Below are positions 16,017-33,339 of a DNA stretch of 64,000 nucleotides, in pieces. A program made the position numbers and the translations under genes. Source of the stretch: Plumapathes pennacea (lineage: Eukaryota > Cnidaria > Anthozoa > Antipatharia > Myriopathidae); assembly GCA_964036295.1 (NCBI GenBank), contig OZ038472.1:62001-126000 (forward strand), in the 5' to 3' direction. The notes beneath the pieces were generated by a model. It worked only from the letters and a program-made list of their open reading frames with translations. It ran no database searches and was not told the DNA's origin. Positions within the stretch are counted from its first letter, which is position 1. The number at the start of each line of letters is the position of its first letter.

Positions 16017-16525
16017 TTGGAAATTAATCCCACGTTGCTGTAATGTGATTAGTTGATTGAGCGTTACTCTTGTTTATCAGGTGGAGGTGACGTTACTTCC
16101 AAACTGGTACAGTAGTGGGCAGCAAGTGTCAGACAGGAAACAGTGTCTGTTGTGAAAAGGTTCATTCAGACCTGCAGGTAAGTACCGACAACATGCAGTT
16201 AGAGCAGATTATCTGGCAGTTCTAGCTGAAAGGGTGTTGAGTTGTGGTTTGCCTTGAAAGCGCGTTTTGTTGCTCTTTGGACTTATTTGTTGTTGTTGTT
16301 GTTGCTTTTCTGCGTTTGCCTTTTAAGACATATTTTGTTACAAGAGCGATCACATTAGCCTCGCTGCTTTTGAACTTATCGTATTTAATAACTGTGATGA
16401 CGACGATAAGAGTGATAACTAAATTATTTAATTTTTTCAAGATTATAACATTTCAACTTGTAGTTGTCCGGCTAACGGGGATTCGTTAAAAAAAACTTAT
16501 AATGATGATGTTCGTTCGATTTTAG

Positions 16526-17027
16526 ATTCACTGCAGCCGTCAGAGCAGCGTTTAAATTCAATGGGCAGGAGCAGTTGACGTTTGCCGGAGGAGAAGAGTT
16601 TGGATGTTCATCGAGAAAGGAAATCGCGGTGCAGATACTTCACGATCCTTCCAATAGCACAACTCCATGGCGATCGATCAGCCTGGATGCTGCAAAACCC
16701 TCGGGTGTGTTTCCGTGTTCTGTATTTGTTATGCGCATCTGTGAGACAAGTTCACCATTTCCTGACGAACCATGTTGTGTGTTTAATCAGTGCCAGGTGC
16801 GCATAAGAATTGGGTATGGTAATGCGAGTACAGATATATATATATATATATATATATATATATATATATATATATATATATATATATATATATATATATA
16901 TATATATATATATATATATATATATATATATATATATATATATATATATTGTTTATATTGTTTATATTGTTTTTTTAATACGCGCATGCAAGAGGTACAC
17001 GATTACAATGCATGTTGTGCAATTTAA
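16526..17027 (+). CDS. Exon-like open frame conserved in both arms, unknown function
   Basis: After a good acceptor (ending 16525) an open frame reads [53 protein letters not shown] and [17 protein letters not shown], then runs into the TA microsatellite. The right arm has the same frame at 32806-32467 with scattered changes (T for A, T for A, N for S, S for G, A for S) and no stop in the shared part. Shorter copies lacking the middle lie near 18535 and 20940. I do not recognise a domain. It may be a relic of a captured host exon. Confidence 0.4.
16833..16949. repeat. TA dinucleotide microsatellite
   Basis: About 58 copies of TA, followed by three copies of 'ttgtttata'. It lies only in the left arm; a short version is found at 19909-19921, and the right arm lacks it at the mirrored place. 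Open frames of Ile-Tyr across it are artefacts. Confidence 0.95.
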
Positions 17028-17074
17028 AACAGAACAGGCGCACTGACTGTAGCAATGTTTGTTTCGTTTTGTAG

Positions 17075-17232
17075 GGTCTCTGAAATACGCGGCACAGAAA
17101 ATGACGTATGGTGCCTGTCATGATATGGGCGGCGACGGTTTTCTGTCGCCAGTTTTCTTGCAGATGTGCCGTAACCTTAACGTGCTCTCTACGAGAGGAT
17201 TAAGCACAGGAAGCCGTGGCCGGGGAACATGA
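17075..17232 (+). CDS. Amplified exon-like module ending in a stop codon, unknown function
   Basis: A tag acceptor precedes two bases and 51 open codons: SLKYAAQKMTYGACHDMGGD, GFLSPVFLQMCRNLNVLSTR and GLSTGSRGRGT, then TGA. Near-identical copies start at 18720, 20047 and 21124, and one inverted copy lies at 32429-32270, where a 2-bp insertion near its start shifts frame before the same residues continue. The block extends past the stop to 'cacaaccggtaggt', with a donor-like site. I recognise no family. That all copies keep the frame may reflect recent amplification rather than selection. Confidence 0.4.
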
Positions 17233-30580: not shown

Positions 30581-30965
30581 ATAAGAAAGCTTCACTTTGT
30601 TTACTCGTCCGTCACACTGGTTCGCAAATAATCGACCTCCGAAGAAAATTCACAGTAACATGACACGGAGCGAATGAAAATCTAAACTCGACTAGTGTAA
30701 TCTTAAATAAATATGTGAAACGGTGTTCATGCATACCATAGTCCATGTTCATCCTCCTTCCGTGAACGATGTCGCCATCATCAAGAAATGTTCCATATTA
30801 TGCGCGAAGCTTTCTTGCAAATCACGTTTGCTGCGAACAGGTCGGACAAGCTCTGCGAGAAAAGAACATGTATTGGCCATAAGCTTGACTGTTCCAAACA
30901 AGTATGAAACAAAAATGGCACGTGCTAGATTCTTGTCGCAACTTTTACCAAAAAAGAATACTTAC

Positions 30966-31019
30966 CATTGAGAAACGGTGACTTTCGCTTGCTTTCGCTG
31001 CCTTCGGCTCTCCACTGTC
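30966..31019 (-). other. Chimeric exon-like segment in the right arm
   Basis: It starts after agcag like the left-arm exon at 22697 (gacagtggagagccgaagg) and ends like the left-arm exon 23364-23440 (gcgaaagtca...tctcaatg, donor gtaagt). An internal deletion has fused two exon copies while keeping both splice sites. Confidence 0.5.
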
Positions 31020-33339
31020 CTGCTAGCAAGAAAAGAACGTCCTCACTAAACGAGAATTTCACGAGCGCGAAACGTTCAGTTTACATAGCCAATACGTCTA
31101 CAGCGTTTTCAAACTAGCTAAACTGGAGCTTCGTTTCTTCTCTTTATGCACAATAAATTTAATCTCTTCTTTTCGAGCATAAATAAAACCACGCTTACCT
31201 CAAAATTAGAGTCCGAACACGTCCGTCCGTCCGTTCTGCTCGCAATTCGGGAAGCAACTGACTGAGGCGACAAAAACATATATGCAAATTGGGCATCTGC
31301 ACGGGGAATGTGCACGGTAGCAAACTATGCGTCAAAATATGCATTAAAACCGGTTTACAATAGCCTTTCAGTGGTCAAAGACTAATCACTGCAGATGCAA
31401 CGCCAATATAACAAGAGAATGCACGCATTTGTAATCGCATTCATGCGAGGTCCACACGCACAAAAAAAAAAACAAGCACTGGTGTATCAAGTCTTCTTTT
31501 GAAGTTTCTGGATAAATTTGGATGTTTTACAACTTGTATTTGTTGCTACCGGTTTCTCCAACGAGCGCTGACTAAAACAAAATGCAGTCGCATAGTCGAA
31601 ACGTTTAATTTCCGCGGTGAAAAAGAAACCTAACTGCGACTCTTACATACCTCTTCAGTGAGCGTGTTTCTTCACAATCCTCTCCTACTGGTTGCACAAT
31701 AACGGTGACAGTTTCCAGTACCCCAGCCACGGGACCCTTATTCAAACAAACAAACGGAGAACCCTTACTCAAAAAGACGAAAGGAGGACCTTCCAAAAAT
31801 AAACCAAAAAGGGGGACCCTCACTTAAAAAACAACAACAGCAACAAGATCACTCTTACGAGTTGACGAAATAGGCATCTGCAAGGGAATCTGCACGGCAG
31901 CAAAATATGTGTCAAAATATTCATTAAAACTGGTTTACAATAGCCTTTCATTGGTCAAAGACTAATCATTGCAGATGCAAGGCCAATATACCAAGAGAAT
32001 GCACGCATTTGGAATCGCATTCATGCAAGGTCCACACGCACAAAAACAAAAAACAACCACTGGTGTATCAAGTCTTCGTTTGAAGTTTCTGGATAAATTT
32101 GGATGTTTTACAACTTGTATTTGCACCGGTTTGCTCCAACGAGCGCTGACTAAAACAGAATGCGATCGCATGGTCGAAAAACAACAACAACAACAAAACA
32201 AATCAAAGGGGGCACCTACCGGTTGTGCAATGCTGGCGATGATTTCCTGCACCCAGTCCTTTTTTCCAGTCATGTTCCCCGGCCACGGCGTCCTGTGCTC
32301 AATCCTCTCGTAGAGAGCACGTCAAGATGACGGCACATCTGCAAAAAAACTGGCGACAGAAAACCGTCGCCGCCCATATCATGACAGGCACCATATGTCA
32401 TTTTCTGCGCCGTGTATTTCAGAGAGACCCTACAAAACAAAACAAACATTGCTACAGTCAGTGCGCCTATTCTGTTTTAAATTGCACAACATGCATTGTA
32501 ATCGTGTACCTCTTGCATGCGCGTATTAAAAAACAAAGAAAAAATTTAAACACACAACATGGTTCGTCAGGAAATGGTGAACTTGTCTCACAGATGCGCA
32601 TAACAAATACAGCACACGGAAACACACTTGAGGGTTTTGCAGCATCCAGGCTGATCGATCGCCATGGAGTTGTGTTATTGGAAGGATCGTGAAGTATCTG
32701 CACCGTGATTTCCTTTCTCGATGAACATCCAAACTCTTCTCCTCCGGTAAACGTCAACTGCTGCTGCTCATTGAATTTAAACGCTGTTCTGACGGCTGCA
32801 GTGAATCTAAAATCGAACGAACATCATCATAATAGGTTTTTTAACGAATCCCCGTTAGCCGGACAACTACAAGTTACTATTTGAAATGTTATAATCTTGA
32901 AAAAATTAAATAATTTAGTTATTACTCTTATCGTCGTCATCACAGTTATTAAATACAATAAGTTCAAAAGCACCGAGGCTGATGTAATCGCTCTTGTAAT
33001 AAAATATATCTTAAAAGGCAAACGGCAAAATAGACAGACAGGCAGAAAAACGGAAATAGGTCAAAAGAGCAACAAAACGCCCCTTCAGAGGAAACCGTAA
33101 CTCAACACCTGTCCAGGTAGAACCGCCAGATAACCTGCTTTAACTGTATGTTGTCGGTACTTACCCGCAGGTCTCAATAAATCTTTTCACAACCGACACT
33201 GTTTCCTTTCTGACACTTGTTGCCCACTACTGTACCCGCTTGGGAATAACGTCACGTCCACCTGATAAACAAGAGTAACAGTCAGTCAACTAATCACATT
33301 ACAGCAGACGTGGGATCAATTTCCAATCTCTAAACTAAA

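Follow-up and report, generated by a model that had tools for sequence, protein, structure and literature searches.

Probable Spread of an Old, Satellite-Rich Inverted Duplication Beside an Argonaute Gene in Plumapathes pennacea by Largely Subtelomeric Segmental Duplication

The Locus

The window, i.e., the whole stretch of 64,000 nucleotides analyzed here (C11:62001–126000, in a genome of 290 Mb and 24 contigs), contains a 17-kb imperfect inverted repeat, with a Ty3/Gypsy pol remnant to its left and the 3′ part of an Argonaute gene copy to its right. The left arm (16017–24210, plus strand) and the right arm (26514–33326, minus strand) are defined by a chain of mirrored blocks and are separated by a hinge of three minisatellites: a C-rich one (24503–24955, 27-nt period), a central one (25048–26126, 26/28/29-nt), and a G-rich one (26237–26515). 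The outer ends of the arms, formed by the left (16017–16786, plus strand) and right (32546–33326, minus strand) copies of outer module A, match in inverted orientation (16017–16786 with 33326–32546) over 785 columns at 90.8% identity; partial direct repeats of this module are found at 18339–18630 and 20743–21034. Module B (16950–17307, plus strand) is mirrored at 32552–32194 and is repeated in the left arm at 18631–18952, 19922–20279, and 21035–21356. The repeats of both modules are interleaved with a TTTG/AAGGGTCCCC satellite (17303–22057, plus strand), seen in bulk in the left arm only; a 136-nt satellite (28289–30183) is seen in bulk in the right arm only.

The best mirrored chain comprises eight blocks with identities of 86.1–93.5%, the innermost pair (23764–24210/26953–26514) adjoining the opposing minisatellites. 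No chain was obtained with a shuffled right arm (0 of 20 shuffles), nor in the direct-orientation control, and of the 35 inverted pairs found in the whole window, 24 of the 25 listed fall in the 17-kb structure. The inverted structure of the original prediction is thus real, and the predicted order, from matching outer ends down to the C-rich and G-rich minisatellites, is borne out; the proposed alternative of a large palindrome is supported, as an imperfect palindrome. The statement that each side carries mirrored blocks across more than 8 kb was too strong, as the chain amounts to only 2,433 aligned columns and much of the arms is unshared satellite.

The Argonaute copy (34954–37335, minus strand) is separated from the right arm by flanking sequence at 33327–34953. 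It includes a Piwi exon (36367–37335, minus strand; Pfam Piwi, E = 6e-78), the next exon (35526–35332, minus strand), and a probable last exon (35041–34954, minus strand), placed by reading and matched weakly by tblastn (E = 0.11). The gene belongs to the Argonaute clade, the nearest solved structures being those of human Argonaute-2. Its window copy breaks off between 37950 and 37951; other copies continue here with another Argonaute exon, and position 37950, where several matches stop, was accordingly dropped as a candidate element end. The copy at C10 16.756–16.767 Mb has the exons from the N-terminal one through the last but one. Beside the block, the window also carries two exons of a Ctr copper transporter and exons of an aldehyde dehydrogenase (39766–40254, 43615–44031, 45783–51967), as well as a 12-nt TACGAGAGTTTG minisatellite (58085–60362, 55677–55891, 63791–64000) with open frames on both strands.

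The pol remnant (11894–15003, plus strand) retains RNase H, an H2C2 zinc finger, and rve in separate frames and encloses an 88-nt satellite (13451–14347). Its frames share the orientation of the left arm and stop about 1 kb short of it, as they might in a giant Ty3/Gypsy retroelement whose long non-coding 3′ part were the inverted repeat. Such an element is very improbable, however: no LTR-like direct repeat is found between 1–15000 and the rest of the window or, the satellite excepted, within 5000–16100, and two interior copies carry only the last kilobase of the remnant. This candidate was dropped for want of an LTR pair.

Genomic Distribution

The outer 294 bases have 24 matches in the genome (all 24 candidates were scored), 16 with left-type and eight with right-type surroundings; copies sharing the ends, whose absence would have spoken against the original prediction, are thus present. 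Five loci possess both ends, 11.7–19.4 kb apart: the window, the C10 start, the C10 end, C6 15.36 Mb, and C10 4.67 Mb. With this arrangement recurring at all five, a misjoin at one place, a concern raised at the outset, is excluded as the cause. The region is repetitive, and two haplotypes or copies could in principle have been joined head to head by the assembly; with five two-ended loci of differing divergence, and the hinge order kept at C10 4.67 Mb, such an artefact is hardly credible.

Six copies lie near contig ends, four of them 66 (C9), 67 (C10), 78 (C11), and 68 kb (C12) from a contig start and two at 57 (C9) and 115 kb (C10) from a contig end; five more are found on distal C6, at 20.3–22.9 of 23.4 Mb. 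The left end points toward the nearer contig end in 11 of these 11 copies. Interior copies are located at C6 15.4, C10 4.7 and 15.2, C11 2.4, 5.4, and 14.8, C4 14.3, and C3 0.6 Mb. Blocks of more than 1 kb at ≥90% identity are present in several places, as in segmental duplication.

Matches to telomere repeats numbered 2,898 and 3,227 and, among the matches listed, include places on C1–C3; the right end of C11, as read, has no terminal TTAGGG. At C3:25–481, the telomere repeats change strand around contig base 370. A separate array at C11:14780581–14814150 consists of five head-to-tail units of about 7 kb that match window positions 8989–14350 (Gypsy remnant and satellite), the inverted repeat following the last unit only.

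Sequence Beyond the Arms

The homology between copies runs past both 16017 and 33326, so that these positions do not behave as the ends of a unit. On the left, at least 1 kb of flank is common to the window and 15 of the 16 left-end matches, the sixteenth (C3) sharing about 120 bases; on the right, the flank is common to all eight right-end matches, of which the one at C11 2.40 Mb shares about 70 bases and then jumps to 35686. C9, C10, C12, and C6 have at least 30 kb in common with the surroundings of the window copy, and in the contig-end and distal C6 copies the homology to the window continues for tens of kilobases. The segments shared include the Gypsy remnant on the left and the stretch between arm and Argonaute 3′ end on the right.

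Outside the left arm lies a linker (15793–16016, plus strand), the first part of which (15793–15866) is 90.5% identical to positions 16727–16800 inside the arm. In the C3 copy, three pieces succeed one another in direct orientation: the second half of module A, the linker (15793–15910), and then the first half of module A. This head-to-tail order, together with the repeat of 16727–16800 in the linker, places point 16017 inside a longer module. No target-site duplication, the presence of which was to be checked, is visible at the ends read (those of the window compared by eye), and the neighbors of the window ends differ (left, GTGTTGGG; right, TCTCTAAA).

Two minor features were seen in the outer sequence. 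A near-perfect palindrome of 195 bases (96%; L067:8116–8309) lies beside an old copy, and part of it is also present at window positions 15944–16001, directly outside the left arm; it is possibly a MITE, and the short palindromic repeat at 15944–16001 may be of a cnidarian type. At C11 5.35 Mb (L051:1054–1104), the left outer side contains an inverted scrap matching the Argonaute intron at window positions 37836–37937.

Arm Comparison

The comparison draws on three completely read copies: the window, C10 4.665–4.68 Mb, and C11 5.35–5.37 Mb. In a 466-base block beside the hinge, left arms of these copies are 93.5–95.5% identical to each other and right arms 94.6–100%, while the left and right arms within one copy are 88.7–91.0% identical. 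As likeness between arms of the same side exceeds that within a copy, the inversion predates the divergence of the copies from one another. Further out, the order is weaker: at 22555–22715, left arms group together (95.0–96.9%) and right arms do not clearly do so, and at 22180–22348 there is no clean left/right order. At the right hinge-side block (26953–26514), the window and C10 4.67 Mb (L049/L050) are 100% identical over the compared part, other blocks being 86–96% identical; might this block have undergone recent exchange?

In the outer module, the two arms of the window are 96.6% alike, compared to 94.3–95.1% between right arms of different copies. The tree of 23 outer modules places the right arm of the C10-end copy among left arms (support 1.0) and both arms of C6 15.36 Mb in one clade (0.81). 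These patterns are read as partial homogenisation or exchange that would have taken place at the outer modules.

Diverged Copies and the Transposon Reading

At least five places carry older copies; two of these, C6 18.89 and C11 13.46 Mb, contain arm and hinge parts at 66–86% identity. Most of each runs in one orientation and gives way to a hinge-like minisatellite and then to a short piece in the opposite orientation; both are devoid of the Argonaute flank, the Gypsy flank, and the outer module. Given these copies, the core may once have been mobile.

The main rival to a duplicated block is a giant non-autonomous, foldback-like transposon whose true ends are elsewhere or have been lost in most copies, the duplicon being a later hitch-hiker. 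Besides the dispersed older copies free of Argonaute and Gypsy flanks, it draws on the likeness to known foldback elements: as described for Drosophila Tetris and Galileo (PMC4079207, PMC3573991), the inverted arms are long, variable in length, and internally repetitive, with tandem repeats inside (for Tetris, see PMC4079207), and arms and middle part have no coding capacity. The descriptions of Tetris and Galileo also give defined termini and target-site duplications of 7–10 bp (PMC4079207, PMC3573991), and arms of up to about 1.2 kb for Galileo (PMC3573991); in contrast, the arms here measure 7–8 kb, copies have common flanks, and there is no target-site duplication at the ends read. Thus, inverted arms with internal tandem repeats and a non-coding middle are present here, but arms reaching the ends of the unit, copies that differ outside it, and target-site duplications are not. 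Moreover, none of the examined copies starts or ends at 16017/33326, the left end at C3 is internal to a module, and the old copies at C6 18.89 and C11 13.46 Mb are entirely without the outer module. We therefore regard this transposon as unlikely, albeit less so than the other rivals. In its original form, a giant non-autonomous element with these very ends, the proposal finds no support, given flanks shared by 15/16 left and 8/8 right matches and the internal end at C3; its remark that no transposase could be found agrees with the Pfam scan, where none turned up in the ten frames scanned within and next to the structure.

Exon-Like Modules

The modules of the arms had been described as spliceable-looking exons. 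Their splice-like signals are mostly, not always, kept, and to this extent the description stands; constraint on coding is another matter. For the second putative exon, 18 of the 22 rows having it keep one frame open, 10 of the 22 being near-identical left arms; a 1-base length change is found in three older rows and a stop in a fourth. Variable sites are spread evenly over the codon phases (19/21/18), and the first putative exon (19/18/8) shows no coding pattern either. Hence, the sequences give no sign of codon-phase constraint. Sliding variability over 13 rows shows mild dips, e.g., at 16117–16156. The second putative exon has no match in Pfam, and its best match in PDB (E = 0.41) is an unrelated protein. 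An origin of these modules from degenerate Argonaute exons, suspected from the translation, was considered and rejected, the window arms having no DNA match to the region of a complete Argonaute gene at C10:16754001–16767600 and no Pfam match.

The kept splice-like signals would also suit a functional hairpin-RNA locus, where Argonaute transcripts reading through into the right arm, which lies in sense orientation, or arm transcripts running toward the hinge, would yield double-stranded RNA for the RNA-interference pathway, used by Argonaute itself, gene and repeat having multiplied as a pair. The right arm and Argonaute are indeed on the same strand, and a Piwi match is found within 2.5 kb of seven of the eight right ends (one of them, at C11 2.40 Mb, is weak and under the family cut-off). 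However, the right flank is a single shared segment, so that the seven linkages are not independent; furthermore, the arms are no better conserved than the flanks in the comparison of the window with two interior copies. On sequence grounds, such a locus seems quite improbable; the hairpin-RNA literature searched contains no description of this block.

Discussion

We consider the 17-kb structure best read as a duplicated repeat block that works like passive repeat DNA, with no demonstrated element. It is probably an old inverted duplication beside Argonaute, with a satellite-rich palindromic core, spread by largely subtelomeric segmental duplication. Non-coding, satellite-rich sequence 1.6 kb downstream of the Argonaute gene would have been duplicated in inverted orientation, leaving two arms that meet at the minisatellite hinge. 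The inversion most likely arose once, and the block would have been copied whole, because likeness among left arms and among right arms beside the hinge is greater than that within a copy. In this later phase, the block, flanked by Argonaute 3′ sequence and, on its other side, by the decayed Ty3/Gypsy element, may have passed between chromosomes by segmental duplication, chiefly via exchange between the end regions of chromosomes as well as inside distal C6, presumably by ectopic recombination; satellites would afterwards have expanded and contracted separately in each arm, and outer modules would have been partly homogenised. The block as such presumably has no function. Four observations fit the duplicated-block reading less well: interior copies are not simply explained by subtelomeric exchange; at C6 18.89 and C11 13.46 Mb, both the Argonaute and the Gypsy flank are missing from the older pieces; left and right arms separate clearly in the hinge-side block only, the C10-end right arm standing among left arms; and the right end of C11, as read, has no terminal TTAGGG.

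A close parallel is provided by Schistosoma mansoni, for which subtelomeric segmental duplications carrying gene families are described and interpreted as interchromosomal recombination (PMC10900676). As in that description, blocks of tens of kilobases with genes and repeats inside are common to several ends, those of chromosomes there and those of contigs here; unlike it, the core here is an inverted repeat, the gene is an Argonaute, and some copies are interior. Large palindromes of sex chromosomes, as characterized in PMC3723533, PMC8981503, and PMC7023750, likewise have long inverted arms, and exchange between arms, of which the outer modules show signs here, is a further likeness; however, their arms are >99% identical, compared to about 91% here, and the arms of the present structure diverge beside the hinge.

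A satellite-filled long inverted repeat may thus mimic a giant transposon when seen as a single copy, and a genome search shows the larger duplicated block. With its accompanying Argonaute copies, the block can serve to examine whether an RNA-interference gene family is fed by repeat-driven duplication at chromosome ends. The literature searched on Argonaute with subtelomeric inverted repeats, or on Argonaute duplication in cnidarian assemblies, holds no description of this block. Argonaute copies also occur at C6 20.91, 21.60, 21.77, and 22.89 Mb, with no outer module nearby. At C10:16749845–16755740, C6:20897383–20901537, C6:21587440–21591666, and C6:15380898–15384686, an Argonaute gene of many small exons adjoins the linked Argonaute, in which a single exon carries most of the Piwi domain.
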